From positions 60,585,947 to 60,649,946 of the forward strand of contig CM060191.1 of the NCBI GenBank assembly GCA_030549335.1: a stretch of DNA of 64,000 bases, in the 5' to 3' direction. Made by a program: the position numbers and the translations under genes. The notes under the pieces are model-generated. The model did not search any database. It was given only the letters and a program-made list of their open reading frames with translations, and had not been told where the DNA came from. How positions within the stretch are numbered: the first letter of the stretch is position 1; each line of letters opens with the position of its first letter. Below are positions 31,272 to 63,467 of the stretch, piece after piece. This stretch comes from Pontederia crassipes (taxonomy: Eukaryota > Streptophyta > Magnoliopsida > Commelinales > Pontederiaceae).

Positions 31272-31318
31272 TCACCTTTTGATTAATTAAGAACCATAAC
31301 GAGCCATGTATTGTATAC

Positions 31319-31639
31319 TGTTGATAATATATCGAATCTGACCCAGTTGTAATTTCATGTGGTCTCTCTGTCTAATGAGGCGCTTCACAAGAATTTTTCT
31401 ACGAGGGTCTTGCTTATCACGAGATAAGTGTCTTATTTTTGAAAATTAATTTAGAGTCTCAATCGGACTGTAATTTCTATCATCTGTTAAAGAAAGTGCT
31501 TATATAAATTTTCTAAGAGTTCAGATAAAAACTCATTCTTGTAATCATCGTTATTCCATAATAAAAAGAGTCGATGCCCTTTTTTTTCCTTCACGTTCTT
31601 CTATGTTTTTGTTATCCCTCTCTCCCTCTTTTCTTAACA
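31319..31639. mobile_element. Possible small solo LTR in copy B
   Basis: 321 bp present in B but not at the matching place in A (~5890). It starts TGTTGATAAT and ends TTTTCTTAACA, the TG...CA form of an LTR, and has an A-rich stretch with AATAAAAAGA near 31560. The flanks TATAC and TAGAT are at best a mutated 5-bp TSD. There is no coding content. Confidence 0.5.
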
Positions 31640-31857
31640 TAGATATGTATCTGTGGTCTAAGAGCTGACAAGTGACAACTCCTGTATGATGATGGTCAAT
31701 TTAGTATAGAGATATTTTAGTTTGTCAAGTGTGCTTTGGAAAATTCAAGCATGCTTTGTTTTCAAAATTGGACTGCTGATGGTCGTAGTTTAGTCTTATG
31801 TTATGTTGGAAATTTATGAGGCGAGAATCTCGCCGTCGAATAATGGAGGGGGATGAG

Positions 31858-32587: not shown

Positions 32588-32595
32588 GGGATGAG

Positions 32596-34535
32596 TGGAG
32601 ATGGCCCTGAGCGATTTCAGACATCCAATTCTTCTTCCATAGGGACCAATCAGAGTCGGGCTTAATTACGTGTAAGCTTGGGCTAGGCTGACCTTTTTTT
32701 CTCTCTCTCTCCTGGCAAATAAAATGTAAAGATGCGAATTTAACCAACGGGGTGGAGCGATAAAAAATTACTCTTTTATTTGATTTTTTTGAATTTAAAA
32801 TATTTTTATTGAGAATTTTATTTATTATACATGGGGTAATTTTATCCAACTAGTCAAGTTTGACGGTGAATCCATTAACTTGTGAACAGGCATCATGTTG
32901 ACATCAATTTGGTTTCATTTGACCAATGGAGATAAGTAATTTCGCGTTATAAGTTGATTTTTTTAGAAGTTTGCCTCTTATGTTGAAATATTGAAAAAAA
33001 ACCATGATATCAGAATTAATGAATGCAAATGTTAACCCTAGAAAGGGTGGAAAAAAATTGCATAAAAAAAAGACATTTACGAAGTTCATTTTCAATTAGA
33101 CAATCACTCGAATGATCATTTTTATTTAGTTGAAATAAAATAAATTAATATTCTTATGAGATACCGAATAATCTAAACCTTAGACACTTTATATAAGGAT
33201 TCCTAATAGAAAATTAAAAATAGAAAATTTATGAAGTTATCTAGATTTTGAAGACTTCTCTATCGAGCATCATAATCAATCTCTTTTAAACTCCTTCGCG
33301 GGTTCGTTGTTATTTGATGGCATGTATCATATAAAGGTCAAAATAATTTACAAGTTAGTTAAGATTTCCAATGAGTTATAAAAAAAATATTCACAATGAC
33401 TCGAATCATCTATAAAATCTATCATGCTTTGACACCATCAACCCCATCTCTGAGTTATTGTCAACTGTTCGTGTTCAACAAACTCAATCAATATTGGAAC
33501 TTGATATGATGAATATTAATCTATCAACTGCACTTGCATAAGGTTTCCGAGACATGCATTTCTTTTTCTAAATCAGATTGAAAGATAGTGGAAAGATGTA
33601 GAGATGAAGTTGATGGATTATTCAAATCATTTTTAAATAAAAATCCTTTTTGCCTTTGATAATATTCATTTTTAAAGTATTGAGCAGTGGTGTAGTATCA
33701 TATCCCAAAGATAGTGAGGGGCTATTTTATTCTGAGTAATGAAGAACTTGCTCTATAGACATTTCAAACATGGATATACAAAATCTTTCTAATATAATTT
33801 TTGAGTCAAGAAGAGTGTACCCTATGTCATAAATTTTGTGTTGCACTAAGATCCTTCATGATAAATTTTGAATCAAGGAATTTCTTAAAATTATGAATTC
33901 TCACATGTTTCTAACATAATAAGTATATCAGCAAGAAATAAAAGCTGACAAATGATGTTGTGCTTCACGTTCTTGTGATATATGGAATAATCATAGGCAT
34001 GTTCTCAAAATATAATAACTTTTTTTAAGATACAAATTTCATCTTCTTTGCCTAGAATGAGCAACCCTCCTATTTGACTTGTCAAAATATCTTCTTGAAG
34101 ATCTCCATGTAGGTAGCTCTAAGTTGTGATGCCACACAATCACGAGCAACACTATATTGAGATGTGTCTGACATCAAATAGTAGTATCTCAATATAGTTC
34201 ATTCCCTCTTCTATGATTTTTAGCAACTAGACGTACATTATATCTCATGCCATTAACTCTCGAAAGTGCCATAATCTTTCTAAAAATTCACTTATAACCA
34301 ATGATGTTTTTTTGTTTTTCAATAATTTGACCACCAACCATATTTGAGTTTTGTGGATAGATTTCATCTCTCCATGTATCAAAATAATCCATTACTTAAA
34401 TTTAGCAATGTAATCATATACCTATAGCAAAATTAGTATGAGATTCTTCTTCTTCAGTCACTTACAACGCATCAATAATCATGTCCTTAAAGTCATATTA
34501 TTTTAGAGGACCCAATTGTCTATGGGGAAGTCACT
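32596..34535. other. Duplicated intergenic DNA in copy B
   Basis: Matches 6200-7043, 8040-8330 and 8938-9625 of copy A, without A's two insertions. Short ORFs are not conserved between the copies. No gene seen. Confidence 0.6.
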
Positions 34536-36205
34536 TGTTGGAAATTTAATCCCTCTTCTTTGTGTGAATTAAATAATATAAGCCAAGCACGACGCACAAA
34601 AAAATAATAATAGGTAAAAGAAACATCAAATTTATATGAAAAGATCCTCCAATGAGAAGGAAAAAAATCACAGGGCAATCACATAGCAATATCACTAATC
34701 CAAGAATAGAATACAATATCTTTTGAATTTTGCCTAAACCCGAATAATAATTCACTTGGATAAATAATTCTTCTCTCAAAAATACTAAAATAACAGTATG
34801 AATAATATCACCTGATTACTACAATTCTCAGTGATTGTAGTATCAATAAAACCTCAGAGATCCTCCCAATCTGGCTCTATTCTTGATTTTTTGCTCTTCA
34901 AGAAGAAATCATCTATCTTCTTTTTCAGCCATCTTCTCTTCTCTCGCTCTTCTTTTCTTTATCCGTTGATCAAAGAAAAAACCTCTTTTTCTTTTTCAAC
35001 CAACTCTAGACATTAAACCTCTTGGCGACTGTTGAAGCAGAGGAAAAAAAACTTTTTCTTCACGTGGCCGCCAATTCAAAAGAGAGAAAAAAAACTATAT
35101 TAAGTAAATTATGTTTAATTAACTTAAATATGTTTATCTTAATGGGCTAGATTAACTCCAAAAAGCTCAACAATCTCCCCCTTCAGCCCATGAGAAGGAG
35201 ATCATTCATCAAGAATCATCGCTTGACTTTCATGCCGGTCAATCTGGCACATCGTTCTAACTTTCTTCTTGAATTTGTCTTTGGCTCTCCCTCTTCAATA
35301 ATCACTGAATACTTAAAACTTGAATATTTAGTGGAAGCACGACGCTCTCTTGTAGATCTGCGAGATAGAGTAGCATCTTGCTTACCCTATACAAAATTCT
35401 CTACATCTGCATCATATGTATCCACATCTGGCTCATTGTTTCTAAGTTTATCTTGTACATAGTCACTACTTTGCTTCTTTGATTTCCTGAAGTTTGCCAA
35501 AGTTTCTAATTCATGAAAAATCACATCTTTGCTTCTGATGATTTTCTTGTTCTTTAGATCCCACAGCTTATATTCAGAATCTACATCTCCATAATCCAGA
35601 AATATGCACTCTTGAGCCCTTTCATTAGATTTCTATCCTTGTTCCTTTGCCACCTGTACATAACCTTTACAAAAAAAAACTTTCAAGTGAGAGTAAGACA
35701 CATTCTTACTAGTCCACACTTTCTCAAGAGCATCTGAATCCAAATGAACTGATGGAGATCTGTTAATCAGGTACCATGCAGTATTCGTAGCTTCACTCCA
35801 AAAGATCTTCGGTAGATTAGCCGTTCTTAGTATACACCTAACTCTATTCAGAATGGTTATGTTCATTCTTTTAGCAACACCATTATGTTGTGGAGTCTTA
35901 GGTACTGACTTTTCATGTCTAATATCATGCTTTGCGCAATAATTTTTGAATTTCTGAAACGTATATTCAACACAATTATATGTGCGAAGACATTTCAGAT
36001 GATTACTTGTCTCATTTTCCACCATAATATGAAACTTCTGAAAAATCTGAAATACTTGATCTTTTGTCTTCATAAAATAAATCCATAATTTTCGTGAAGC
36101 ATCATCAATAAAAGTAACAAAATATCTATTGCCACCTAAAGAATTTATCTCAATGGGACCACACACATCTGAATGCACCAAATCCAACTTATTTTCCTTT
36201 TTCTT
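34536..36205 (-). mobile_element. Truncated Ty1/copia element (3' LTR plus part of pol)
   Basis: The sense strand is minus. The 3' LTR is 34536-35172 (637 bp; sense TGTTGAGCTT...TTTCCAACA), immediately preceded in sense by a polypurine tract, GAAGGGGGAGAT. Inside lie integrase (35633-36187) and the post-integrase linker (FLDYGDVDSEYKLWDLKN, ~35610), followed by the RRSTRERR motif. RT and RNase H are deleted between that linker and the PPT. The 5' LTR and gag are missing; homology to copy A resumes at ~36205. No TSD is expected from a truncated copy. Confidence 0.85.
35633..36187 (-). pseudogene. Copia integrase core, catalytically dead
   Basis: A 184-codon frame with the copia integrase order: DLVHSDVCGPI, FVTFIDDASRKLWIYFMKTK, then a motif reading TYNCVEY where the family has a (S)DNGGEY-like motif, then PQHNGVAKRMN where the family has PQ(Q/H)NGVAER. 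The second acidic residue and the catalytic Glu of the DDE triad are therefore replaced. The downstream linker continues after frame breaks. Confidence 0.9.
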
Positions 36206-36470
36206 ACAAAAAATATAAATTTTATTTTAACATAATCAACATTTTTATTTATGCCAACAAAGATGTCCACTGCAAAGTTTGAGGAGACCCATGTGAAAAT
36301 AGGTCTAGATGTATTCCAAATATTAAGTTAGTTTTTCACAGTGGTTGGATTATTTTATTAATCATTTAGCTAGCTATGTGTGGAGTTTAATTCTTATACA
36401 TGTAAGAAATTCATATTTTATATATGTAAAAAAATATTTTGTCAAGAGCTTAAGTACGTCTCTAGCATGA

Positions 36471-37364
36471 GGGTAAATTACACCAAATGCCCTCCAACTT
36501 TAAGGTTTGCTCAGCAATACCCTCCAATTTCACTTTGTAACACAAATGCTCTTCATCTTTTAACGCGTTTCACCCGATGCCCTCTTTACCTGGGATAGCC
36601 AGTTTTCCAATTTTTTGTCGACGTCCACGTGGCCATATCCTCTCTCATCTACGCAAATAGTCATCCGACGTGGCATATAAAATTATACTAATGCCCTCAA
36701 ACTTTAAGGTTGGCTCAGCGATACTCTTCCACTTTACTTTGTAACACAAATGCCCTTCATCTTTTAATACATTTCACCCGTTGCCCTCTTTACCTGGGAC
36801 AGACGGTTTCTCAATTTTTCATCGACGTGGTATCCACTTGGCCATCTCATTTCTCCTCCACGCAAATAGACGTCCGACGTGGCATGCTCCTACATGGCAC
36901 ATAAAATTACATCAAATGTCCTCCAACTTTAAAGTTTGCTCACCAAATGCACATAAAATTACACCAATTTGGGCAAAGATGGCGGCCGATGAACGCGAAA
37001 GGTGAATGATGGAGGCAAACGACGAAGGAGTGCGAACAACGAAGGAGGTTTCACGCGAACGATGACAAAGAGGAAAATAAGAAAATAATTTAATAGTGAG
37101 TGTGTCAACTTACGGTAAGTAAGTTGGTTTAATATGTGGTGCCACGTCGAAGCATGTCACGTTGGACGACTATTTGTATGAAGGAGAGAGGAGATGGCTA
37201 CGTGGACACCACGTCGATGAAAAATTGGAAAACTGACTGTGTCAGATAAAGAGGGCATCGGGTGAAACACGTTAAAAGATGAAGGGCATTTGTGTTATAA
37301 AGTGAAGTTGGAAGGTATCGCTGAGCAAACCTTAAAGTTGGAGGGCATTTGATGTAATTTACCC
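36471..37364. mobile_element. Long-TIR MULE-type element in copy B
   Basis: 894 bp. Ends are GGGTAAATTACACCAAATG on the left and its near-perfect inverse on the right; the inverted arms stay similar for at least ~130 bp (through CACCCGATGCCCTCTTT). The left arm is followed by a second tandem version (~36680-36830) and a partial third (~36905-36945). The flanking 9-mers CTAGCATGA (36462-36470) and CAAGCATGG (37365-37373) match at 7 of 9, as expected for an old 9-bp TSD. Copy A at ~11437 lacks it. ORFs here reflect the repeats. No transposase. Confidence 0.85.
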
Positions 37365-39189
37365 CAAGCATGGTTGTTAGCCACTCAAACAACTCCCCGG
37401 TTCAAGTAGAACCAATCAAATCAGTCCATCGAAACAAATAGTAATAAAATGTTATATTTAAATGTAATATGTTAAATCACTTTATCATATTTCCATCATG
37501 CAAATATACATCAAGCTCAAAGTTCAATTATACAAAAACTAGCATAATATTGATAACACTAAAACTTAGATTACATCTAATGTTATATTAAAAAAATATA
37601 ATTTTAGTAATGTAAATATATTAGGTTCACAATTATCACAATAAAAATTATATAACTGTTGACAAATTGAAATCCCAATTAAAACTATTTATATAATTTA
37701 TAATTTTATTTTCTTAATTTGTATAGTAAATCTCATGTCATAAATAATAAATAAATAAAATTATCCCATGTTGAAACATTAGGACAAGACTATAAATTTT
37801 ATTCTGCAATAAATATATAATAAAATTTTGTGGTTAAATATCTACTTCGAACTTATTACATACTAAATTAAATAAAATTAAAATTACGTATATATATTAT
37901 TTGCATAATGCTATAGTAACCATATTATTGTATTATTATCTCATTATTTTCCTCTCCATCAATAACCAAAATTTTATTATTATTTAATAAATATATAATT
38001 ATTTTTTTGTATTATAAATACATGTTATAAAAAAGTTAACAAAATCATAATTCATAAGATAAAATTTAAAATTTAACAAGTTCTAATGTAGAAGAAAAAA
38101 AAAAGGAAGAATGAACGGACAACCAGTCCCCACATTCATAATATCAAGAGTTATTTTCTTAAATTTCTCTTAAAATATCACAATCTTTTACTTCTAATCC
38201 TAAAGTAAAAACTTACCTTACAATATTCCTAAATTTTGTCACACTTTTCACTTAGTCCTTATGTCATATTCTATTAATTTTTTGTTATTTTTACTCTTTT
38301 TCATATATGACAATAAATAAAGCATCCTCCCCACATAATAACTGAAATATCTATAATTAAAAATATAAAAATTAAAAAAATTCTCTTGATCATCATCATT
38401 TTTTAGATTATTTATTATTTTATTAAACACAACAATATAGCACATATATTCCAATTATTATGTGGGAAGAGCACTTTAGTCTTTTCACTAATGAAGAAAA
38501 GAAAAAATAATATAAAAGTTAAACAGAAGGGCTAAAGTGAAAAATATGATAAAATTAGGAAAATCATAAAGTAAGTTCATACTTGGAAGTTAGATGCGAA
38601 AAATTGTAATAGTTTAAAAGAGGTTTAAGAAAATAACCATAATGCCAAAAAGTATGAGCATATAGGAGCATATTAATCCAAGAGAAAATTAGTGGAATAA
38701 AGTATTAAACAATTTTAGAGGGAACGACGAGATTTCTCCATTTATTTATAAAAAATTTATCAATTAATAAAAAATAATTTTCATAAGTTTTATCCAGTTT
38801 TGCTTATTTTATTCACTTTTAACATTTTTTTACCTGTCTTAATCAGTTCAATGTGGTTCAATTGGACATTCGATTTTGGGTTTCTTTTGGACCACAATAA
38901 TTATCGATTGCCGATGGAACTAGTCGGACCATCCAATCCGATCTGCTAACAACACTAGGTGGAACCATCCAGTCCGACCCTAACAACACTAGGTGGAACC
39001 ATTTGGTCCGGTTCTAATAGCACTCGTCATGAGTGTGTTCTTGTGTATGTAATAAATTTTGGGATTAGAAATATACACCAAGCTAGTAAGACTAAACGAA
39101 GAGTTTTTCAATCTGAACATCAAATTAATTGAGTTGGATGATGAGTCTTCATTCTAGTCTTTGTCTTATGCATAATCTAAATAATTATT
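37365..39189. other. Right part of copy B and junction to the LINE
   Basis: 37365-39010 matches copy A (11437-11998, 13017-13458, 20652-21340) without A's MULE-type and gypsy insertions. At 38320 it preserves the gypsy element's empty site. 38840-39010 has GGACC/GGTTC-rich repeats like the end of a hAT-like element. 39011-39189 is featureless DNA before the LINE. Confidence 0.6.
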
Positions 39190-40468
39190 AACGGAGATGA
39201 ACGTGGAAAAGGAGAAAAAATGCTGCCAAAACCTCCGGGCCTCCTTTCCAATGTCGACTTCCCTCACCTCCCCCCACCTCTATCTCTCTCAAATCAAACA
39301 AAGCAGCAGTCTGGCTGACACCCTACACTACTTTCCTTTTCTCGTGCTCATCTGGCTCATAAATCTCATGATCCCATCTCTAAACCCCAATGCTCGACCT
39401 CCTGGGCTGAAAGGGTGTTACAACACATCGACCAACAAAAGCATTGAGACCAAGAGGTTCGACAACACAGCTAAAAATGCTCCAAGAGGCAACCTCAAAG
39501 GAGATCCAGATCCCTAGGAAGATGTAGATCAATGCTCAGAAGACCTCTAAGTGCTCTCTCATGGGAAGATTCTAAGGCGATGCTACATCTATAAAAAAGA
39601 TGGGAATAGATCTCCCAACTTTATGGGGCTTGAAGCACATTCTAAGGATTATCAAGTTAGGCAGCTACTACCTTCTCTCCTTGTTTGGCGACCTAGATGA
39701 GAAGCTACGTGTTTTGACAAATGGTCCGTGGTCATTGAACGGAGGCTTCCTAAATGTCATACAACCTAGAGCTTTCTTCAAGCTAATGGAGGAAACAATC
39801 ACCTTCCCCCAATTTGGATTCATCTATCAAACTTCTCTTATGGACTACGAAACCTCAAATCTCTCCTCATAATTGCATCCTACTTTGGGATGCCCCTCAA
39901 GGTGGATGAGCACACCATGCAGAGCGACCGCTGTCGCTTCATGCACATATGTGTGGAAATGAATCTTGCTTCTCCGATCAAGCCAAGAGTATGGGTTCTC
40001 TGTAGAGAATTTAACTAACCAAAATCATCTACTAATAAGATGATATTATATTAATACAAGAGAGAGTACAATATGATGGACACATTACACTCCACACACG
40101 TACACTTCCTGTTGTACACCTATCTCTCTCTTACCTCAGCCTAAATACTAATACACCTGATGCCCAAGGCAACACCTATGCACCTATTCCCTCAACTTAC
40201 TACACTACTCTTTCACACATCAAGACCCCCTCATACATGGAGGATTGTTGCTGCCGAGGGATAGCCAGAAGAGATGCACATCATGCCTATTTATAAGCAC
40301 TAAGGCACCATGTTTTGCATCTAAACCATCAACTAACCAATAGTTTTTATTTCTGTGGGATCCACAGTTTCAAACCAGCTAGTAGCTTCTAGGAAGTTCC
40401 ATGTCAGTGCTGCTATTTCTAACACTCCCCCTCAGCACCGACTTGCATTGCTTCCTCCTTTGTTTTTA

Positions 40469-42119: not shown

Positions 42120-44458
42120 CTTGTAGAGAATTTAACTAACCAAAATCATCTACTAATAAGATGATATTATATTAATACAAGAGAGAGTACAATATGATGG
42201 ACACATTACACTCCACACACATACACTTCCTGTTGTACACCTATCTCTCTCTTACCTCAGCCTAAATACTAATACACCTGATGCCCAAGGCAACACCTAT
42301 GCACATATTCTCTCAACTTACTACACTACTCTTTCACACATCAAGACCCCCTCATACATGGAGGATTGTTGCTGCCGAGGGATAGCCAAAAGAGATGCAC
42401 ACCATGCCTATTTATAAGCACTAAGGCACCATGTTTTGCATCTAAATCATCAACTAACCAATAGTTTTTATTTCTGTGGGATCCACAATTTCAAACCAGC
42501 TAGTAGCTTCTAAGAAGTTCCATGTCAGTGCTGCTATTTCTAACATTCTCATGCCGGACGGAAGCAGATACTTTCAGCGCATCACCAATGACAACTTGCC
42601 CACTTTCTACTTCTCTTGCAGAAATATTGGTCATATAATGAATTCTTGTACTAATTGACATGCTAATATGCATAATCATGATGCAAATACTTTTGAGAAA
42701 CCACCCTACGGCAGCTAGATGTGGTCGTATCCGCCGTGAAGATGCTCCACCGGAAACATCGAATGGAGCCAACAAAAACACTTTAAATGCCCAAGCTGCG
42801 TTGGACAAAGAACTGTCGCTTGATCGTGATTCCAAAGTTCCTATGGAATTTAGTGATAAGGATCTAGCTATTGGGGATCGAGATCCTTTCACACCCTCGT
42901 CACACTCACTGCTTGACGCCAACCTATCACCCATTCAATCGTACTCAACTGCTACGAAATCTCCTCATCGATCTTCTCCAAGCTCCTGTCCAGGTTTGTT
43001 GGGTGGTACACGTGACGTGGCACGTGCTTTGGCTCGGAAAAATGCGTCTTCAACAACACCACTAGAAAAATCTCTTTCCTCGAATGCTCCATTTCTTTCC
43101 CTCGTTCCTACTAATGCCAACTCTCCCAATACCTTGTGCAGATCAGCCCAGGGAAGATGGAGCTGCACGAGCGGATGATCTTCCAAGCTACACAGGCGAT
43201 CTCTTCTTCAAATGCAAATGAGGACACACAACCTGACACATCCGCTGAAGAGGAAATCGACATGGATGTTTCTCACCTAAGCCACCAACCACACAAATAG
43301 GAAAAAGATAGGGAAACAGAAGGCAAGTAAACACGACACTTACTTTATTACAAGAAAATAATGACAACCATTTCTTGAATCCTCCTACTAGTGAGGAATC
43401 AAATCGTCGTCTAGGTGATCACTTGCTCATCACTATATGATTTTAACTCATTTTAGATGCAATTCATACATATCGAGTCCCACTTTTACCTATTTTTGGG
43501 CCAATTATACTTGGAATGCAAACATTGTGATAACTAGTTGATATTCCTCATTTCATACTTAATTCCATGTGCATAGAGGTTCTGAAATGCCAAAATCTAT
43601 TAATATTTAAATTCTATGCCAAGTTATCATTTTGAGGATAAGTTATCATTCCTAAGTGTCAAGTTATCATTATTTTGAATGAACTTATTTTCAATGGTTT
43701 TCTTGCCCTAAATCCATCATTATTATGTATAAATCATATTTGGATAGTCACATCTCAACTTGTGCAAAGTTTTAAGTCCATTTGAACAAGTTATCATTTT
43801 TCAAGTGCCAAGTTATCGTTAAAGGGCAATTCTGTCATTTCGACATGCAAAACCATTAATTCTGCACAAGGACCTTAAGCAATCATCTTATTATTGTTCT
43901 AACTCATTGCTGGTCAAATTTCATCACATTTGGATAATCAAAACTCAAGTTATGATAAGTTATCGTTTTTAAGTCATATAAGTTATCGTTTTTGGGGCAC
44001 TCAAGTTATCACTTTTAGGAATCTCATTCATATTTGATTTTTGACCTCACTCACTTGTCACTCTAATCAATTTGATGCATGAAATGCTTTGAACCACCCA
44101 TATTAGGACATTTCCCAAGATTTCCATAAAGTTATCATTCCGGGCCCTTGAATTAATTCATATCGATATCGGTTTTCATTCTTGCAACACACCAATTCCC
44201 TTTTTGCTATAGATCTGATTTTAACTACTGTCCTAATCCTTAGTTGTTTAAATATTATTAGAAGACTTTCATGCTTGATGTTTTGGCCCTTGTAGCAAGT
44301 GGAAAAGGTGGCCAAAAGGAAGAAAAAAGGAGGGGGGACCACTAGCTTTTTGGCTGTCCAAAAAGCTGTCACTGCTGGAATTTCAGAGGGGTGGACAGGT
44401 GGCTGCAATCAGGAGGATTAGAACATTTAGATGCTGATCAAAGGGTGGAAAGGAGTGA

Positions 44459-44465
44459 TATATAA
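44459..44465 (+). promoter_or_regulatory. Candidate TATA box of the gypsy-type LTR
   Basis: TATATAAG in AGTGATATATAAGCTGG, about 165 bases upstream of the ATGAGGAGCTAAACTCC leader motif. It lies in the single-copy part, so the amplified units lack it. Confidence 0.45.
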
Positions 44466-44997
44466 GCTGGATTTTTCTGGAGGAGAGGGGGGAGGTCATT
44501 CAAGGGTTTGGAGGAAGGCAAGGCTGCAAAGGATTCTGGTGGAGGAGCTGCTGGCCAGGAAGCTTCAAAGGATCCATGAATTGTATCTGTTTCTTACCCC
44601 ATTTGATGTCAAAACTTGTAAATATGAGGAGCTAAACTCCATTTCTTCTAGGATAGGGTAGTAGTTTAGATTAGTTTTGGATGGATATGGACTGTTTTAT
44701 AATTCCTGCACTGAATCATTTCTGATTTTCAGATTTGAGAAACTTCTTTACTGATTTATGCTATGCTACTATTAGATCTAATTGTAACCAATGAATGAGA
44801 AGTATTACTTGATCTAATCATTCTACAGAAGTGAATTAAGAGTTAATGTCAGTTTTCTGATTTCATTCAATTGCAATTCTGATTTCTGATTTGGTTTCTG
44901 ATTTCTGAATTTGATTCCTATAAATATCAGAATCTGTTCTTCATTTCTAACTTGGTTAATTGAGTCCTTGGGATGTTGGTATTGTCCCTATCTTATT

Positions 44998-46085
44998 CAG
45001 AAATGAATCAAGATTGTTTGGGCAATCATTTGACTCAAATCAGATTTTTCATTAATTCCTGAACAGAAATCAGAAATCTGATTTTTCTGGTTTTACATTT
45101 CTGAAATCTGATTTGTTATAAATCTGATCTTGCCATTTGAAGACCCCATTTGTATTTATAACTGAGAAGTTATCATTTGGTCTAACCCTTGTTCAGAAAT
45201 GAATCAAGAATCAATGGCAAGTTCTAGATACAAACCCAATTAGAATTCTGATTTCTATTTTCTGAAATCTGATTTTTTGAAATCTGAATTCTGATTTTCT
45301 TGGGCTGTTTGAATCTGATTGTCATTGGGGATTGAACTAATTGAACAACTGAGAGATTGACATCTATCCCAATCTTGTTCAGAAATGAATTGAGAAGCTT
45401 TAACATTCCTATGATTCAAAACTGATTTGGTTTTCCCTGATTTGAATGAATTGAATGAGTTGCTGATTTTTTGGTTTCCTAAATTCCAAAATCTGATTTC
45501 TTGGGCTTTTGAATCTGATTGTCATCTAGGATTAGATAATTGAATAGTTGAGATGCTAATATATGCCATGATCTTATTCAGAAATGAATCAAGATCATTG
45601 ACAATTCAGAATTCAAATCTGATTTTTTTTCCAAAATCTGATTTCTTAGTTTGATTCTAAATTCTATTTTCTGATTGTTTGGAATCTGATTTGCCAATTG
45701 TTAATCCCTATTTTATTCAAATCACTGAGAGGTGTACTCTAGGAATCCCTTGCAGTCCAGAGATGGGTCAAGGGGCATTTGACAAACTTGAATTCCATCA
45801 ATCCACATTGCTGATTTTTTCAGAAATGCTGATTTCTGTTTTCTCATTTTTCTAACTTCTGATTTCCATTGTCAACCCTCATATTAATCCACTACTGAGA
45901 GGTAGTCTTAAGGGCTTCTTTGAGATCCAGAGATGGGCCAAGGAGCAATGGAAATTATGAACTCATGTGGCCATATGGTTTGCATTTCCAATTGAGTGTG
46001 TTTGTGTGGATTCCAATTTATTTTGCAACCGAGAGGTTGATTTTGAATCTCCCTTGAATTCAGAGATGAATCATGGAACACAAGC
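44998..46085. repeat. Degenerate ~130-200 bp sub-repeats within the unit
   Basis: The motif CAGAAATGAATCAAG or a variant (CAGAGATGGGTCAAGG) occurs at 44998, 45194, 45380, 45579, 45758, 45928 and 46061, spaced 196, 186, 199, 179, 170 and 133 bases apart. In most intervals it is preceded by AACTGAGAGGTTG-like words. Between them TCTGATTT words recur every few tens of bases. This ancient substructure is copied in every 1764-bp unit. Confidence 0.8.
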
Positions 46086-49000
46086 ACCATTATTGAGTAT
46101 ATTTTATCCTGGTTTGGTTGATTGGAATGATTCCATCTTTTTATGATTGTAAATGCAAGTTATCATTCCAAACTTCCTTGAATTGCAAAAAATCAGCATT
46201 GAATCTTTCTTTTGAGCCCAATGATAACTTGATTTTCAGTGAGGACCCTCTTTTGATTCAACCTAGCTAACAATTATATAATCATATATTGCTTAGTTAG
46301 AAGCCAATTGAGCTGTGTGAACACCCATATTCAAGTTGAATCAAAAGTTGGACATTTAGTGATAACTTGTTCCATTCCATCCTTAATTAATTTAGATGAA
46401 TCCCAAATCCTAGAAGAACCTTCCTCATAGATAGTTAAACATTTTTAGACTTCATTCTAGCATTTATAATTCAGTTTTGATAAATTTCCAAAACCCAAAA
46501 ATCTGTTATCATTTCAATTTCCATAAAAAAATATGTTTTCACTTCCCTTTGAAAATCTGTTTTTAGCCATTAAAGTAGAACTAATTTAGATTGTTTTAGG
46601 GTGTCTTAGACTTCAAATTCTTGTGGATACGACAACCTGAGTCTACTACAACTTACCTGTGCACTTGCAGCTAGTGAGTTGGGAGACCAAAAAAATGAAA
46701 AATTGACATTTTCTTTAATTTCAGCAAGTTATCACTAGAAAACCCAAATATCACTATCAAGTTTTTGTGAATCAAGATTGTTTGGGCAATCATTTGACTC
46801 AAATCAGATTTTTCATTAATTCCTGAACAGAAATCAGAAATCTGATTTTTCTGGTTTTACATTTCTGAAATCTGATTTGTTATAAATCTGATCTTGCCAT
46901 TTGAAGACCCCATTTGTATTTATAACTGAGAAGTTATCATTTGGTCTAACCCTTGTTCAGAAATGAATCAAGAATCAATGGCAAGTTCTAGATACAAACC
47001 CAATTAGAATTCTGATTTCTATTTTCTGAAATCTGATTTTTTGAAATCTGAATTCTGATTTTCTTGGGCTGTTTGAATCTGATTGTCATTGGGGATTGAA
47101 CTAATTGAACAACTGAGAGGTTGACATCTATCCCAATCTTGTTCAGAAATGAATTGAGAAGCTTTGACATTCCTATGATTCAAAACTGATTTGGTTTTCC
47201 CTGATTTGAATGAATTGAATGAGTTGCTGATTTTTTGGTTTCCTGAATTCCAAAATCTGATTTCTTGGGCTTTTGAATCTGATTGTCATCTAGGATTAGA
47301 TAATTGAATAGTTGAGATGCTAATATATGCCATGATCTTATTCAGAAATGAATCAAGATCATTGACAATTCAGAATTCAAATCTGATTTTTTTTCCAAAA
47401 TCTGATTTCTTAGTTTGATTCTAAATTCTATTTTCTGATTGTTTGGAATCTGATTTGCCAATTGTTAATCCCTATTTTATTCAAATCACTGAGAGGTGTA
47501 CTCTAGGAATCCCTTGCAGTCCAGAGATGGGTCAAGGGGCATTTGACAAACTTGAATTCCATCAATCCACATTGCTGATTTTTTCAGAAATGCTGATTTC
47601 TGTTTTCTCATTTTTCTAACTTCTGATTTCCATTGTCAACCCTCATATTAATCCACTACTGAGAGGTAGTCTTAAGGGCTTCTTTGAGATCCAGAGATGG
47701 GCCAAGGAGCAATGGAAATTATGAACTCATGTGGCCATATGGTTTGCATTTCCAATTGAGTGTGTTTGTGTGGATTCCAATTTATTTTACAACCGAGAGG
47801 TTGATTTTGAATCTCCCTTGAATTCAGAGATGAATCATGGAACACAAGCACCATTATTGAGTATATTTTATCCTGGTTTGGTTGATTGGAATGATTCCAT
47901 CTTTTTATGATTGTAAATGCAAGTTATCATTCCAAACTTCCTTGAATTGCAAAAAATCAGCATTGAATCTTTCTTTTGAGCCCAATGATAACTTGATTTT
48001 CAGTGAGGACCCTCTTTTGATTCAACCTAGCTAACAATTATATAATCATATATTGCTTAGTTAGAAGCCAATTGAGCTGTGTGAACACCCATATTCAAGT
48101 TGAATCAAAAGTTGGACATTTAGTGATAACTTGTTCCATTCCATCCTTAATTAATTTAGATGAACCCCAAATCCTAGAAGAACCTTCCTCATAGATAGTT
48201 AAACATTTTTAGACTTCATTCTAGCATTTATAATTCAGTTTTGATAAATTTCCAAAACCCAAAAATCTGTTATCATTTCAATTTCCATAAAAAAATATGT
48301 TTTCACTTCCCTTTGAAAATCTATTTTTAGCCATTAAAGTAGAACTAATTTAGATTGTTTTAGGGTGTCTTAGACTTCAAATTCTTGTGGATACGACAAC
48401 CTGAGTCTACTACAACTTACCTGTGCACTTGCAGCTAGTGAGTTGGGAGACCAAAAAAATGAAAAATTGACATTTTCTTTAATTTCAGCAAGTTATCACT
48501 AGAAAACCCAAATATCACTATCAAGTTTTTGTGAATCAAGATTGTTTGGGCAATCATTTGACTCAAATCAGATTTTTCATTAATTCCTGAACAGAAATCA
48601 GAAATCTGATTTTTCTGGTTTTACATTTCTGAAATCTGATTTGTTATAAATCTGATCTTGCCATTTGAAGACCCCATTTGTATTTATAACTGAGAAGTTA
48701 TCATTTGGTCTAACCCTTGTTCAGAAATGAATCAAGAATCAATGGCAAGTTCTAGATACAAACCCAATTAGAATTCTGATTTCTATTTTCTGAAATCTGA
48801 TTTTTTGAAATCTGAATTCTGATTTTCTTGGGCTGTTTGAATCTGATTGTCATTGGGGATTGAACTAATTGAACAACTGAGAGGTTGACATCTATCCCAA
48901 TCTTGTTCAGAAATGAATTGAGAAGCTTTGACATTCCTATGATTCAAAACTGATTTGGTTTTCCCTGATTTGAATGAATTGAATGAGTTGCTGATTTTTT

Positions 49001-52000
49001 GGTTTCCTGAATTCCAAAATCTGATTTCTTGGGCTTTTGAATCTGATTGTCATCTAGGATTAGATAATTGAATAGTTGAGATGCTAATATATGCCATGAT
49101 CTTATTCAGAAATGAATCAAGATCATTGACAATTCAGAATTCAAATCTGATTTTTTTTCCAAAATCTGATTTCTTAGTTTGATTCTAAATTCTATTTTCT
49201 GATTGTTTGGAATCTGATTTGCCAATTGTTAATCCCTATTTTATTCAAATCACTGAGAGGTGTACTCTAGGAATCCCTTGCAGTCCAGAGATGGGTCAAG
49301 GGGCATTTGACAAACTTGAATTCCATCAATCCACATTGCTGATTTTTTCAGAAATGCTGATTTCTGTTTTCTCATTTTTCTAACTTCTGATTTCCATTGT
49401 CAACCCTCATATTAATCCACTACTGAGAGGTAGTCTTAAGGGCTTCTTTGAGATCCAGAGATGGGCCAAGGAGCAATGAAAATTATGAACTCATGTGGCC
49501 ATATGGTTTGCATTTCCAATTGAGTGTGTTTGTGTGGATTCCAATTTATTTTGCAACCGAGAGGTTGATTTTGAATCTCCCTTGAATTCAGAGATGAATC
49601 ATGGAACACAAGCACCATTATTGAGTATATTTTATCCTGGTTTGGTTGATTGGAATGATTCCATCTTTTTATGATTGTAAATGCAAGTTATCATTCCAAA
49701 CTTCCTTGAATTGCAAAAAATCAGCATTGAATCTTTCTTTTGAGCCCAATGATAACTTGATTTTCAGTGAGGACCCTCTTTTGATTCAACCTAGCTAACA
49801 ATTATATAATCATATATTGCTTAGTTAGAAGCCAATTGAGCTGTGTGAACACCCATATTCAAGTTGAATCAAAAGTTGGACATTTAGTGATAACTTGTTC
49901 CATTCCATCCTTAATTAATTTAGATGAACCCCAAATCCTAGAAGAACCTTCCTCATAGATAGTTAAACATTTTTAGACTTCATTCTAGCATTTATAATTC
50001 AGTTTTGATAAATTTCCAAAACCCAAAAATCTGTTATCATTTCAATTTCCATAAAAAAATATGTTTTCACTTCCCTTTGAAAATCTGTTTTTAGCCATTA
50101 AAGTAGAACTAATTTAGATTGTTTTAGGGTGTCTTAGACTTCAAATTCTTGTGGATACGACAACCTGAGTCTACTACAACTTACCTGTGCACTTGCAGCT
50201 AGTGAGTTGGGAGACCAAAAAAATGAAAAATTGACATTTTCTTTAATTTCAGCAAGTTATCACTAGAAAACCCAAATATCACTATCAAGTTTTTGTGAAT
50301 CAAGATTGTTTGGGCAATCATTTGACTCAAATCAGATTTTTCATTAATTCCTGAACAGAAATCAGAAATCTGATTTTTCTGGTTTTACATTTCTGAAATC
50401 TGATTTGTTATAAATCTGATCTTGCCATTTGAAGACCCCATTTGTATTTATAACTGAGAAGTTATCATTTGGTCTAACCCTTGTTCAGAAATGAATCAAG
50501 AATCAATGGCAAGTTCTAGATACAAACCCAATTAGAATTCTGATTTCTATTTTCTGAAATCTGATTTTTTGAAATCTGAATTCTGATTTTCTTGGGCTGT
50601 TTGAATCTGATTGTCATTGGGGATTGAACTAATTGAACAACTGAGAGGTTGACATCTATCCCAATCTTGTTCAGAAATGAATTGAGAAGCTTTGACATTC
50701 CTATGATTCAAAACTGATTTGGTTTTCCCTGATTTGAATGAATTGAATGAGTTGCTGATTTTTTGGTTTCCTGAATTCCAAAATCTGATTTCTTGGGCTT
50801 TTGAATCTGATTGTCATCTAGGATTAGATAATTGAATAGTTGAGATGCTAATATATGCCATGATCTTATTCAGAAATGAATCAAGATCATTGACAATTCA
50901 GAATTCAAATCTGATTTTTTTTCCAAAATCTGATTTCTTAGTTTGATTCTAAATTCTATTTTCTGATTGTTTGGAATCTGATTTGCCAATTGTTAATCCC
51001 TATTTTATTCAAATCACTGAGAGGTGTACTCTAGGAATCCCTTGCAGTCCAGAGATGGGTCAAGGGGCATTTGACAAACTTGAATTCCATCAATCCACAT
51101 TGCTGATTTTTTCAGAAATGCTGATTTCTGTTTTCTCATTTTTCTAACTTCTGATTTCCATTGTCAACCCTCATATTAATCCACTACTGAGAGGTAGTCT
51201 TAAGGGCTTCTTTGAGATCCAGAGATGGGCCAAGGAGCAATGGAAATTATGAACTCATGTGGCCATATGGTTTGCATTTCCAATTGAGTGTGTTTGTGTG
51301 GATTCCAATTTATTTTGCAACCGAGAGGTTGATTTTGAATCTCCCTTGAATTCAGAGATGAATCATGGAACACAAGCACCATTATTGAGTATATTTTATC
51401 CTGGTTTGGTTGATTGGAATGATTCCATCTTTTTATGATTGTAAATGCAAGTTATCATTCCAAACTTCCTTGAATTGCAAAAAATCAGCATTGAATCTTT
51501 CTTTTGAGCCCAATGATAACTTGATTTTCAGTGAGGACCCTCTTTTGATTCAACCTAGCTAACAATTATATAATCATATATTGCTTAGTTAGAAGCCAAT
51601 TGAGCTGTGTGAACACCCATATTCAAGTTGAATCAAAAGTTGGACATTTAGTGATAACTTGTTCCATTCCATCCTTAATTAATTTAGATGAACCCCAAAT
51701 CCTAGAAGAACCTTCCTCATAGATAGTTAAACATTTTTAGACTTCATTCTAGCATTTATAATTCAGTTTTGATAAATTTCCAAAACCCAAAAATCTGTTA
51801 TCATTTCAATTTCCATAAAAAAATATGTTTTCACTTCCCTTTGAAAATCTATTTTTAGCCATTAAAGTAGAACTAATTTAGATTGTTTTAGGGTGTCTTA
51901 GACTTCAAATTCTTGTGGATACGACAACCTGAGTCTACTACAACTTACCTGTGCACTTGCAGCTAGTGAGTTGGGAGACCAAAAAAATGAAAAATTGACA

Positions 52001-53815
52001 TTTTCTTTAATTTCAGCAAGTTATCACTAGAAAACCCAAATATCACTATCAAGTTTTTGTGAATCAAGATTGTTTGGGCAATCATTTGACTCAAATCAGA
52101 TTTTTCATTAATTCCTGAACAGAAATCAGAAATCTGATTTTTCTGGTTTTACATTTCTGAAATCTGATTTGTTATAAATCTGATCTTGCCATTTGAAGAC
52201 CCCATTTGTATTTATAACTGAGAAGTTATCATTTGGTCTAACCCTTGTTCAGAAATGAATCAAGAATCAATGGCAAGTTCTAGATACAAACCCAATTAGA
52301 ATTCTGATTTCTATTTTCTGAAATCTGATTTTTTGAAATCTGAATTCTGATTTTCTTGGGCTGTTTGAATCTGATTGTCATTGGGGATTGAACTAATTGA
52401 ACAACTGAGAGGTTGACATCTATCCCAATCTTGTTCAGAAATGAATTGAGAAGCTTTGACATTCCTATGATTCAAAACTGATTTGGTTTTCCCTGATTTG
52501 AATGAATTGAATGAGTTGCTGATTTTTTGGTTTCCTGAATTCCAAAATCTGATTTCTTGGGCTTTTGAATCTGATTGTCATCTAGGATTAGATAATTGAA
52601 TAGTTGAGATGCTAATATATGCCATGATCTTATTCAGAAATGAATCAAGATCATTGACAATTCAGAATTCAAATCTGATTTTTTTTCCAAAATCTGATTT
52701 CTTAGTTTGATTCTAAATTCTATTTTCTGATTGTTTGGAATCTGATTTGCCAATTGTTAATCCCTATTTTATTCAAATCACTGAGAGGTGTACTCTAGGA
52801 ATCCCTTGCAGTCCAGAGATGGGTCAAGGGGCATTTGACAAACTTGAATTCCATCAATCCACATTGCTGATTTTTTCAGAAATGCTGATTTCTGTTTTCT
52901 CATTTTTCTAACTTCTGATTTCCATTGTCAACCCTCATATTAATCCACTACTGAGAGGTAGTCTTAAGGGCTTCTTTGAGATCCAGAGATGGGCCAAGGA
53001 GCAATGGAAATTATGAACTCATGTGGCCATATGGTTTGCATTTCCAATTGAGTGTGTTTGTGTGGATTCCAATTTATTTTGCAACCGAGAGGTTGATTTT
53101 GAATCTCCCTTGAATTCAGAGATGAATCATGGAACACAAGCACCATTATTGAGTATATTTTATCCTGGTTTGGTTGATTGGAATGATTCCATCTTTTTAT
53201 GATTGTAAATGCAAGTTATCATTCCAAACTTCCTTGAATTGCAAAAAATCAGCATTGAATCTTTCTTTTGAGCCCAATGATAACTTGATTTTCAGTGAGG
53301 ACCCTCTTTTGATTCAACCTAGCTAACAATTATATAATCATATATTGCTTAGTTAGAAGCCAATTGAGCTGTGGGAACACCCATATTCAAGTTGAATCAA
53401 AAGTTGGAGATTTAGTGATAACTTGTTCCATTCCATCCTTAATTAATTTAGATGAACCCCAAATCCTAGAAGAACCTTCCTCATAGATAGTTAAACCTTT
53501 TTAGACTTCATTCTAGCATTTATAATTCAGTTTTGATAAATTTCCAAAACCCAAAAATCTGTTATCATTTCAATTTCCATAAAAAAATATGTTTTCACTT
53601 CCCTTTGAAAATCTGTTTTTAGCCATTAAAGTAGAACTAATTTAGATTGTTTTAGGGTGTCTTAGACTTCAAATTCTTGTGGATACGACAACCTGAGTCT
53701 ACTACAACTTACCTGTGCACTTGCAGCTAGTGAGTTGGGAGACCAAAAAAATGAAAAATTGACATTTTCTTTAATTTCAGCAAGTTATCACTAGAAAACC
53801 CAAATATCACTATCA
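45004..53815. repeat. Tandem array of five 1764-bp units
   Basis: Units are 45004-46767, 46768-48531, 48532-50295, 50296-52059 and 52060-53815; the last is 8 bases short. They are nearly identical, with only a handful of substitutions each. Unit 1 has the most private differences, such as GAGAGATTGACA where the others read GAGAGGTTGACA. Each unit ends with the LTR terminus CTATCA plus AGTTTTTG, then restarts at TGAATCAAGATTG; the final unit ends at CTATCA and passes straight into LINE sequence. The pairs of ~60-codon minus-strand ORFs in each unit recur only because the DNA repeats. Confidence 0.97.
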
Positions 53816-53821
53816 CTAGGT

Positions 53822-54055
53822 TCAGGTGTTCGTATCACCTCCTAAGCAAATCCTAACATGGAACTGTAGAGGAGCTCTCAGAAGTAAGGTTCATGATAAG
53901 CTCACGGACCTCATTAAAATATATCACCCATATATTATTGCATTAGTAGAAACTCATGCTCCTGAGGAAAGATCTGAGAGGGTAGTAAAAAAGCTTAGCT
54001 ATCAGGGGCATCACTTGTTATTTTTCCCTTCATTTAGTTTACAATATACTAATAT
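53822..54055 (+). pseudogene. LINE ORF2 endonuclease N-terminus
   Basis: Translation QILTWNCRGALRSKVHDKL, then YIIALVETHAPEERSE and QGHHLLFF, is the start of an APE-type endonuclease of plant L1-like LINEs: the WNCRG opening and the VETH catalytic-Glu motif are present. Similarity fades at ~54020, where AT-rich foreign sequence begins; the frame stops at 54059. The His and later Asp motifs are absent. Confidence 0.85.
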
Positions 54056-54708
54056 TTGAACTTTAACTTATGAATTATTATTTTATCCAAAATTTTAATA
54101 ACATAAATGTATATTATAATGTAAGTTAATTATATACTAATAATATTATATATATAATATTTGTTATATTAGATAAATTAGTTAGAGATGAATGGTACAA
54201 ACTTCTTTGTTATATGTATAATATACAATAAAACTATAACATACTTAATATAGTATAGTATTACATATAATATATATATATATACAAATTTAAAATTTCT
54301 TTAATTTAATATTTAATAAGTTCAAATTATACTATATATTCATTTATAAAATATATAATCTTTTCATAATATTTGGGAAAAAATATTTATAAAAATTTTA
54401 AAGAAAAGAAAATTTATATATAATAATGAGATTTAGTAAGATTTTCATTTATTAAGTGTGTAATAATTTTAACATCAAATTTTATATTTAAATTTTATGA
54501 TTTATGATTATAAATTTTTATAATTATATTTTGACGTAGGTATAAATATTCAAAATATAATAACTTAATTTAATATACCATATTAAATATAATATTTTAT
54601 TACTATCCGGTCCGACCGACCGGTCCAGCCGGTTCGACCGGTCCAACCTGAAACGGACACTTGTCCGGATCGTTGTCCGGTCCGATCCTAACAACATTGC
54701 CTAGAACC
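54056..54708. other. AT-rich insertion with a hAT-like right end
   Basis: Very AT-rich with no ORF, ending in a CCGGTCC/GGTTCGACC-rich arm at ~54607-54695. The reverse complement of that arm begins CAATGTTGTTAGGATCGG, close to the end of the hAT-like elements at 577 and 31858. The left end is not clear and no TSD is seen. Probably a decayed relative that replaced or deleted LINE sequence. Confidence 0.45.
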
Positions 54709-56452
54709 TGTTGGAGCAAAGTTGTTAATACATATATAATTATATTTTGATGATACAAACTTCAAAAGATTAAGAGCTATATTTAAAATGTCAAAAAAGT
54801 TTAAATAGAAATGAGTGACTTCATGCACTAAACTTTTAATTAATATTTGTCTATGTTTGCATAAAATTTATATTAAGAGGTGAATATAAAAGTTATAGAT
54901 AACTTTATTATCTTTCTAAAAAATTAAGAATCACCTCATTGGGACAATCACATAAAACGCTATGTTTAAATGAAGCTTGAAAAGTTGAAATTGCATTTGA
55001 TATTTTTATGTACTAAACTTGTACTTAATATTTGAGTATTCCATCATGAGATTTGGATAAAAAGATTAATATAAAAGTTATATATAATCCTCTTATATTT
55101 TCATAGAATTAAGAATTATCTCATTTGGACAATCGTATCAAAAGTTATGTCAAAAATAGTGAAGATCGACAAGTTCTATTCGAAGTTGATAATTTTATGT
55201 GCTGAACTTTCATTAAATATTTGATTACTTTATCAACTGATTTGGGATAAGAGGTGATCATGAAAATTGTAAATAAAAGTGTTAGCTTTTCATAGAATCA
55301 AATATCATCTCATTTGGATACTGGTATGAAAAGTTATGTATAAAAGAGTAAATATATAAAATGTTTCATTTGAAATGGACAACTTTATGCACTGAACTTT
55401 CATTGAATATTTGACTATGATCTCATTGGATTTTGAATGAATGATGAATACAAAAATTGTAGAGCATTTTGTTATCTTTCCATAGAATTAAATATTTACT
55501 CATTTGGATAACTGTGCAAAATGTTATGTATAAAAGAGTGCAGGTCTATCAGGCTGTCAATGACAAAACGATCGACCGATACATTAACGGTCGACCGTTA
55601 TGGGTAAAAAAGGATGTACGAATTAAAACGGACGACCGAAGGTGTTTTCGGAATGATCGCTAATCACAGAGACCAAAGACATTTCTAAAACGGACGACTG
55701 AAATATTAACGGTCGACCGTTATGGGAGCAAAAGCAATAACAACGGCTAAAATCCTTCTACGAACTACCATCAACGGAGAACTGCGCAGAAAAGACAAGC
55801 GCAACGGCTAGTTACTATTCATAATGGTCGACCGTTATCTAAAACGGTCGACTGTTATAGAGCTGATAGCACAATCTTTTTGAATTACTTTACAACGGCC
55901 AAATTTTCAAGAGAAGCCTATAAAAGGGATTTAAAAGATTGAAGGAAGACCAACTAAGCAAGGCAAATCATTCTAGAGATCCCTTCAAATTCAAAGCATT
56001 TTTCTTGCGCCAAAGTTGCAAATCATCCCTTTCCTCTTCTAGTTTCTTAGTGAAAACATTATTTGTAAGAAGAGAGCATTGGGGGGAATTCTTGTTTAGA
56101 TAGTTTTTTAGAGCTCCTTATAAGAAGATGTGTGCCTTACCTCTTGAGCAAAGAAGAAGATGTTATGGTGTAAAAAGGTTTATTCTCTCCCTACAAGAAA
56201 AGAGAAAGATAGTGAATCTCCGGCGGTCTCGAGGTCGAGAAGTCGGAGCGGGGATGTAGGTCAAGGTGTGACTGAACCTTGTCAACAAATCACCGTGCAT
56301 CTCGAGTTTATCTTTCTCTCTCTCATTTCTACTCTATTATTCATGTGATTTGATTGCTATTGTGTTGGTTTAAATAGCGATGATTTTCGTAAAATCGATA
56401 TTTTCGATTTAAACACCAATTCACCACCCTCTTGGTGCCTTGTGATCCTACA
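54709..56452 (+). repeat. 5' LTR of the copia-type element
   Basis: Promoter-proximal DNA at 55560-55860 carries several AACGGTCGACCGTT palindromes or halves. A TATA box, TATAAAAG, lies at 55919-55926 (62910 in the partner LTR). The outermost ~850 bp hold a degenerate repeat with CATTTGGA(C/T)A, ACTTTCATTAAATATTTGA and AAAAGTTATGT at ~190-230 bp intervals. Confidence 0.9.
55919..55926 (+). promoter_or_regulatory. LTR TATA box
   Basis: TATAAAAG, just downstream of the GGTCGACC palindrome cluster and conserved in the 3' LTR (~62910). It should drive element transcription from about 55950. Confidence 0.6.
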
Positions 56453-61752: not shown

Positions 61753-63467
61753 TGTTGGAGCAAAGTTGTTAATACATATATAATTATATTTTGATGATAC
61801 AAACCTCAAATGATTAAGAGTTATATTTAAAATGTTGAAAAAGTTTAAATAGAAATGAGTGACTTCATACACTAAACTTTCAATTAATATTTGTCTATGT
61901 TTGCATGAAATTTATATTAAGAGGTGAATATAAAGTTATAGATAACTTTCTTATCTTTCTAGAAAATTAAGAATCACCTCATTGGGACAATCACATAAAA
62001 CGCTATGTTTAAATGAAGCTTGAAAAGTTGAAATTGCATTTGATATTTTTATGTACTAAACTTGTACTTAATATTTGAGTATTCCATCATGAGATTTAGA
62101 TAAAAAGATTAATATAAAATTATATATAATTCTCTTATATTTTCATAGAATTAAGAATCACCTCATTTGGACAATCATATCAAAAGTTATGCCAAAAATA
62201 GTGAAGATCGACAAGTTCTATTCGAAGTTGATAATTTTATGTGCTGAACTTTCATTAAATATTTGATTACTTTAAAAATTGTAAATAAAAGTGTTAGCTT
62301 TTCATATAATCAAATATCATCTCATTTGGATACTGGTATGAAAAGTTATGTATAAAAGAGTAAATATATAAAATGTTTCATTTGAAATGGACAATTTTAT
62401 GCACTGAACTTTGATTGAATATTTGACTATGATCTCATTGGATTTTGAATGAATGATGAATACAAAAGTTGTAGAGCATTTTGTTATCTTTTCATAGAAT
62501 TAACTATCAACTCATTTGGATATTTGTGCAAAAAGTTATGTATAAAAGAGTGCAGGTCTATCAGGCTGTCAATGACAAAACGGTCGACCGTTATGGGTAA
62601 AAAGGATGCACGATTTAAAACGGACGATCGAAGGTGTTATCGGAATGATCGCTAATCACAGAGACCAAAGACATTTCTAAAACGGACGACCGAAACATTA
62701 ACGGTCGACCATTATGGGAGCAAAAGCAACAATAACGGCTGAAATCCTTCTACAAACTACCATCAATGGAGAACTTCGTAGAAAAGACAAGCGCAACGGC
62801 TAGTTACTATTCATAATGGTCGACCGTTATCTAAAATGGTCGACCGTTATAGAGCTGACAGCACAATCTTTTTGAATTACTTTACAACGACCAAATTTTT
62901 AAGAGAAGCCTATAAAAGGAATTTAAAAAATTGAAGGAAGACCAACTAAGCAAGGCAAATCATTCTAGAGATCCCTTCAAATTCAAAGCATTTTTCTTGC
63001 GCCAAAGTTGCAAATCATCCATTTTCTCTTCTAGTTTCTTAGTGAAAACATTATTTGTAAGAAGAGAGCATCGGGGAGAATTCTTGTTTAGATAGTTTTT
63101 TAGAGCTCCTTGTAAGAAGATGTGTGCCTTACCTCTTGAGCAAAGAAGAAGATGTTATGGTGTAAAAAGGTTTATTCTCTCCCTACAAGAAAAGAGAAAG
63201 CTAGTGAAGCTCCGACGGTCTCAAGATCGAGAAGTCGGAGCGGGAACGTAGGCCAAGGTGTGGCTGAACCTCGGCAATAAATCACTGTGCATCTCGAGTT
63301 TATCTTTCTCTCTCCTTTCTACTCTATTATGCATGTGATTTGATTGCTATTGTGTTGGTTTAAATATTAACGAATCAATTTTAAGCTTCCGTGATGATTT
63401 TCGTAAAATCGATATTTTCGATTTAAACACCAATTCACCCCTCCTCTTGGTGCCTTGTGATCCTACA
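61753..63467 (+). repeat. 3' LTR of the copia-type element
   Basis: 1715 bp. It lacks ~30 bases near 62273 and one palindromic segment near 62585 relative to the 5' LTR. Same TATA box and palindromes. Confidence 0.9.

Follow-up and report, generated by a model that had tools for sequence, protein, structure and literature searches.

A 64,000-nucleotide stretch of the Pontederia crassipes genome (C9:60585947-60649946 in our contig numbering, referred to here as the window) contains a five-unit tandem array built from part of a long terminal repeat (LTR) of a gypsy-type retrotransposon. The array is likely to have been founded by a deletion from one LTR to the other, and then enlarged by local unequal exchange within that one element. 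It lies at about 60.63 Mb on the 74.75-Mb contig C9, a place not known as a centromere. Genome-wide searches covered the 1.13-Gb assembly of 43 contigs.

Self-comparison of the window, in this one assembly, identified five head-to-tail units at 45004-53815, each 1764 bp long except the last, which is 8 bp shorter. The stretch 45004-52051 is 99.79% identical to 46768-53815 over 7048 positions. When the sequence was shifted against itself by 1764 bp, the matching fraction was 0.986-1.000 in every 500-bp step from 45000 to 51500, and control shifts of 1763 and 1765 gave just 0.308-0.356 in the same steps. The shift test and the self-comparison confirm the exact 1764-base period and the five units that an earlier note on this DNA had reported. 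Each full unit is composed of the 3' 1756 bp of the LTR plus AGTTTTTG (8 bp). The description of the unit as the 3' part of an LTR joined to the sequence that follows the 5' LTR also held, AGTTTTTG being the first 8 bp of that sequence. There are 10 variable columns among the five units, and pairs of units differ at 1-7 positions. The features of the structure are as follows.

43411..43415, no strand: left target-site duplication CTAGG, read from the sequence; the same 5 bp stand directly past the right end
43416..45003, + strand: 5' part of the LTR in single copy, starting with TGATCACTTGC, the family start motif
45004..46767, + strand: unit 1, with the LTR 3' part at 45004-46759 and then AGTTTTTG at 46760-46767
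45356, 45402, 45481, 46401: private derived bases of unit 1, three A in the left part and T at 46401
46760..46772, + strand: junction of AGTTTTTG with TGAAT, sequence past the 5' LTR joined to mid-LTR; found again at 48524, 50288 and 52052
46768..48531, + strand: unit 2, with one private change (column of 46025) and A at the column of 46559, as in unit 4
48532..50295, + strand: unit 3, with a single private change at the column of 45951
50296..52059, + strand: unit 4, with 0 private changes and 1 difference from unit 2
52060..53815, + strand: unit 5, the LTR 3' part up to the terminus CTATCA, without AGTTTTTG; private change at the column of 46353
53816..53820, no strand: right target-site duplication CTAGG, directly after 53815

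The outer edges of the structure are LTR ends (TGATCAC...CTATCA), as had been read before, and a perfect 5-bp duplication, CTAGG, stands on both sides. Because this duplication bounds the whole structure, the entire 10.4 kb is one insertion with normal ends. The chance of a given 5-bp match is about 1 in 1000, and exact 5-bp duplications, judged by eye, also flank the single family LTRs at loci L015, L016, L017 and L020. The LTR had been thought to start at 43438. Its true start is 43416, 22 bp earlier, as TGATCACT[T/C]GCTG[A/G]TCACTATA lies directly upstream of TGATTTTAAC in 11 of the 12 family LTRs compared; the exception, L018, has no 5' part. Apart from single-base variants, the 22 bp preceding 43438 are common to these 11. 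The LTR 5' part at 43416-45003 is 92-98% identical to other family LTRs and has 5 private substitutions in the 1588 bp compared. A complete family LTR measures 3.3 kb, and 43416-46759 makes one complete LTR.

The unit matched its own assembly at least 49 times, and 44 of these matches span at least 1,660 bp of the query. Five of the 44 are the array units, and the other 39, at 96-98% identity, are LTRs of a high-copy family, a count that is a lower bound because 40 of 4848 first-look candidates were scored. At L075, where the LTR starts are 10.5 kb apart, Pfam domains of gag, protease, reverse transcriptase, RNase H and integrase are encoded in gypsy order. By these predicted proteins the family is Ty3/gypsy, and it has two-LTR members. 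Relatives with two LTRs and an internal region, which the earlier note had proposed to look for, are present in the assembly (for example L009, L012 and L075). Its assignment to an Athila/Tat-type gypsy element stands as Ty3/gypsy, on the L075 domains and the primer-site sequence, and is not settled between Athila and Tat. The Athila lineage has a primer site for tRNA-Asp. In the two frames of L075 scanned, the matches at E up to 0.01 included no second RNase H family, and we presume that its lack would favor Athila over Tat. The 5' LTRs of L009 and L012 are followed by AGTTTTTGGCGCCGTTGCCGGGG, and one-base variants of it come after L013 and L018. Because AGTTTTTGGCGCCGTTGCCGGGG follows 5' LTRs of the family, AGTTTTTG in the joints marks a 5' LTR end. 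Two long frames in the internal region of the shorter relative L009/L010 (LTRs 6.8 kb apart) had no Pfam match, and this relative may be non-autonomous.

Regularly spaced family LTRs were also observed elsewhere. Near-constant spacing in one orientation is found at C11:41248983-41282128 (four LTRs, about 10.45 kb) and C6:41349073-41364357 (three, about 6.86 kb), and C2:21389351-21407739 has three same-orientation LTRs spaced by about 7.5 kb. These loci are perhaps multi-LTR tandem elements that arose by LTR recombination.

The joint between units fuses CACTATCAAGTTTTTG to TGAATCAAG. Its left parent runs on with GCGCC and its right parent is preceded by GAAA. A shared TG had been claimed at this point, but such microhomology is ruled out by a parental overlap of 0 bp. 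With up to 3 mismatches allowed, the junction pattern CACTATCAAGTTTTTGTGAATCAAG has four occurrences in the assembly, all four of them the array joints, and the reversed control pattern has 0. The joint was probably made once. Recurrent breakage at the primer site was considered and rejected. The assembly has 132 places that match CACTATCAAGTTTTTGH, and all 30 that were fetched run on as family sequence with point changes, one of them also with a missing base; these are primer-site variants of normal family sequence and not breakpoints. Among the 100 matches listed of the 132, T follows only at the four array joints. Older, degenerate subrepeats lie inside the LTR at 45000-45632, where GAAATGAAT occurs at 45000, 45196, 45382 and 45581 with a spacing of 186-199 bp. 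The left breakpoint of the array falls in the first of them.

The variable columns were polarized with a panel of 27 family LTR reads. The panel represents 26 LTRs (L063 is the same LTR as L030), and one of its 351 pairs is a self-comparison. It leaves out L040 and L042 (divergent, 92% and 77%), the window's own loci, loci below the length cut, and L006, L007 and L008, which repeat L013, L015 and L009. Seven of the reads stop about 257 bp short of the LTR end. At the column of 46318, T is present in units 1-4, and G in unit 5 and in 27/27 panel reads. The column of 46441 has A in units 1-4, and C in unit 5 and 24 of the 27 reads. This pattern fits descent of units 1-4 from the 5' LTR end and of unit 5 from the 3' LTR end. 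The ends were assigned in this way because the right ends of units 1-4 carry AGTTTTTG and unit 5 abuts the target duplication with the family bases.

Units 1 and 5 differ at 7 of 1756 positions (0.40%). Over the same stretch, the LTR pairs that were taken as single elements differ at 2/1498 (L026/L027), 3/1499 (L030/L031), 5/1755 (L009/L010), 5/1756 (L011/L012) and 7/1756 (L013/L014) positions. The last two pairs were recognized by matching flanks (CATAT and GTACG), L009/L010 by a primer site following one LTR and a purine tract preceding the other, with flanks that do not match, and L026/L027 and L030/L031 by spacing alone. The panel LTR otherwise nearest to unit 5 is 1.33% away, and the median of the 351 panel pairs is 1.42%. 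An origin of all units from the two LTRs of one element is favored by these comparisons.

The order of events under an LTR-to-LTR deletion would be as follows. A gypsy-type element inserted beside a LINE (long interspersed nuclear element) endonuclease frame and created the CTAGG duplication that is visible today. The joint, itself present in the array, then linked a point 8 bp beyond the 5' LTR to a point midway in the 3' LTR (that of 45004), which would have given an LTR-AGTTTTTG~LTR' structure. Its formation would have removed the internal region together with the first part of the 3' LTR, presumably by an end-joining deletion, if the events occurred in this order. The two homologous 1756-bp stretches could then mispair between sister chromatids or homologues. 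A first unequal exchange would have produced three units, a second one, shifted by two units, would have produced five, and a few private substitutions would have followed. The earlier note had proposed a deletion from the 5' LTR edge into the middle of the 3' LTR followed by unequal exchange. This remains the best-fitting model and the variant polarity agrees with it, but the microhomology that it included does not stand.

The column of 46559 has A only in units 2 and 4. On the assumption that G changed to A there just once, growth histories were enumerated from a dimer through up to three unequal exchanges, gains and losses included. Exactly one history fits with two exchanges; with one or three, no history fits. 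The dimer becomes a trimer, the middle unit acquires the G-to-A change, and an exchange between unit 3 and unit 1 yields the pentamer. This history predicts that units 2 and 4 are copies, and the 1 difference observed between them is the fewest of any pair. The simplest course suggested by the variants is growth from dimer to trimer to pentamer by two unequal exchanges. The T at 46401 would most simply have arisen after growth, because it is flanked by both shared derived sites yet is absent from units 2-4. Substitutions since growth number from 3 certain to 7 possible in 8812 bp. Rates of 1.3e-8, 7e-9 and 2.5e-9 per site per year translate these into about 26-61, 49-113 and 136-318 thousand years, an order of magnitude only, as these rates may not be the species' own, and conversion may have erased changes. 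The array is able to gain or lose units by unequal exchange and is at an early stage of growth.

The earlier note had called this satellite birth. An early tandem array is what the data support; satellites are long arrays with many copies, and here there are five units at one locus and no further junction in the assembly. Because the units are confined to a single locus and the junction is absent elsewhere in the assembly, the array is at most embryonic and by its size not yet a satellite.

Several observations weigh against the deletion and exchange history. The break lies no more than 8 bp from the LTR end, at the tRNA primer site, a position that points to reverse transcription or to the ends of complementary DNA (cDNA). 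With no internal region left, the deletion cannot be observed directly. Family members vary at the column of 46559, with 14 G and 6 A in the 20 panel reads that have letters there. Because of this polymorphism the shared A may be recurrent, and several histories fit if it is set aside. At the column of 46441, A is likewise carried by 3 of the 27 panel reads (2 LTRs). L010 and L069, which belong to different elements, are only 6/1755 apart (0.34%); because this pair is equally close, the closeness of units 1 and 5 does not prove a single element. The modelling covered unequal exchange, and gene conversion from a sister chromatid, the process proposed for maize, would yield like products. A search of the assembly with the joined flanks (252 nt) found the array's own two flanks and 13 weak matches, and no empty site. 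The 13 further matches are to the LINE endonuclease start, and their alignments begin about 27 bp or more to the right of the insertion.

The position of the break keeps one alternative alive, because a random deletion over a multi-kilobase internal region would rarely hit the primer site. The joint could have been made in reverse transcription, by a minus- or plus-strand switch that linked the LTR middle to the border of the tRNA primer site, and a cDNA with a duplicated LTR 3' part would then have integrated; we regard this as unlikely but deserving of weight, and the same holds for its corollary that chromosomal exchange merely altered the unit number. AGTTTTTG, at which the unit ends, comprises the spacer and, if the primer site begins TGGCGCC, about two of its bases; this is where cDNA synthesis starts. 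We take the primer site to start at TGG, which places the break about two bases inside it. At both outer edges the structure has LTR termini processed in the normal way and flanked by a target duplication, as integration of such a cDNA would leave them. Two other loci have related structures. L013 (C38:414500-420500) has an approximately 181-bp tandem duplication over the LTR end and primer site, with copies 96% identical, and at L019 (C6:67880000-67886000) the LTR is followed by AGTTTTTGGCG, the spacer and a partial primer site, and then by different sequence. Other observations speak against this origin. No other copy with the junction is present in the assembly. In 132 loci the base after AGTTTTTG is not G, and all 30 of these that were fetched run on as normal family sequence with small changes. 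A single template predicts five identical units, whereas units 1-4 differ from unit 5 at the two polarized sites, which would need later exchange or two packaged RNAs. If reverse transcription did make the joint, retrotransposition would deliver ready-made two-unit satellite seeds with normal ends and target duplications. As a separate observation at L019, the sequence after AGTTTTTGGCG begins with CAGT, and CAGT also ends the left flank; the locus is perhaps an insertion with an untrimmed cDNA end.

Two further explanations are far less probable. In one, a 1764-bp circular DNA or a multimer of it was excised or made from an LTR, amplified, and recombined homologously into a solo LTR, which we consider highly improbable. 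The same unit order and the same segregation of end-specific variants would be expected from it. However, a circle from another family member should differ from the host LTR by about 1.4% (about 25 sites, from the median of the 351 pairs), and units 1 and 5 differ at 7; a circle from the array's own locus would escape this divergence argument. Direct LTR-LTR joints are one mark of joined cDNA ends; a genome search that allowed up to 30 bp between the LTRs and used only the exact pattern of the commoner LTR start gave a single case. The sole head-to-tail abutting pair, at C21:3366093-3366137, has a 21-bp spacer. The other explanation, that an assembler repeated a smaller number of real units, is given equally little credence. 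The unit number rests on one assembly, but the units are not exact copies, their 10 variable columns are arranged in a way that fits an exchange history, and the 8.8-kb array lies within a 74.75-Mb contig. Long reads normally span 8.8 kb. An LTR-to-LTR deletion followed by unequal exchange within one element remains the likeliest origin of the array.

This class of mechanism is known. In maize, CRM1TR and CRM4TR are tandem repeats of an LTR and the adjacent untranslated region (UTR), proposed to derive from an LTR-UTR~LTR structure that internal deletion had formed (PMC3648361). Their growth was ascribed mainly to gene conversion, and unequal exchange or rolling circles were left as further possibilities (PMC3648361). 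The present joint is of the same type, as AGTTTTTG followed by TGAATC joins sequence just past the LTR to the LTR interior. The likeness extends to the 0-bp overlap found here, as in the maize repeats, too, no short repeats were detected that would explain the joint by a single event (PMC3648361). CRM1TR and CRM4TR are centromeric or pericentromeric, and their sequence covers several hundred bases to each side of the LTR-UTR border (PMC3648361). Unlike them, the present unit stops 8 bp past the LTR, and its five units occupy one locus with the outer target duplication intact. The array would thereby be one of the known kind of tandem arrays that start from an LTR-UTR~LTR structure.

Other systems share parts of this organization. 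The Sobo repeat of Solanum bulbocastanum, related to the Sore1 LTR, also has a long monomer (4.7 kb) that resembles gypsy LTRs (PMC3648361, PMC9659126). It forms a single pericentromeric array of about 360 kb (PMC3648361, PMC9659126), whereas the present array measures 8.8 kb. Similarity of the Sobo monomer extends to a satellite repeat and to other genomic DNA (PMC3648361, PMC9659126), whereas the unit described here is wholly LTR plus 8 bp. The Ogre-derived satellites of Lathyrus sativus likewise grew from sequence inside LTR retrotransposons (PMC7004042). They expand short pre-existing arrays downstream of gag-pol (PMC7004042), whereas here about half of the LTR is the unit. LTR recombination has also been proposed as the source of Cassandra tandem arrays (PMC7215508). 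Those arrays (PMC7215508) and the apparent multi-LTR arrays of this genome repeat the LTR together with the internal domain, of which none is left here. A search of the open-licence literature found no paper that combines these features, and an earlier description of a duplication-bounded five-unit case is possible.

The beginnings of satellites are mostly inferred from large homogenized arrays in which the first steps are erased. The five-unit array keeps its target duplication, a one-copy LTR front and variants that distinguish the two LTR ends, which makes the order of steps readable. Because the insertion borders are intact and the array is young, these steps are testable in populations. 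The array agrees with the model proposed for centromeric repeats of maize; its element family is a different one, and its site is not known as a centromere.

Two further features were identified next to or within the insertion.

53820..54059, + strand: flanking LINE fragment, start of the endonuclease frame (Pfam Exo_endo_phos, E 1.8e-5)
44459..44465, + strand: TATA-like motif from a motif scan, a possible promoter, in the unrepeated part of the LTR

The LTR element inserted just upstream of the start of this LINE endonuclease frame. The frame at 42642-43178, left of the insertion, gave no Pfam match. A promoter role of 44459..44465 is possible from its sequence; the motif scan also matched 43977 and, within the unit, 46275.

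Other repeats are present in the window. Several stretches of 1-13452 recur in 25219-38322, about 25 kb apart, at 72-96% identity; within this recurrence, 4366-5877 is 96% identical to 29789-31307. It represents either a large old duplication or related nested elements. Close to the array, 54709-56452 and 61753-63467 are direct repeats of about 1.75 kb, 92% identical and 7 kb apart, with internal 190-bp subrepeats; they are perhaps a second LTR-type element. The 427-bp direct repeats at 40001-40427 and 42122-42548, which are 98% identical and 2.1 kb apart, perhaps bound a small LTR-type element. Between them lies a minus-strand frame with a zinc-knuckle-like CCHC motif.

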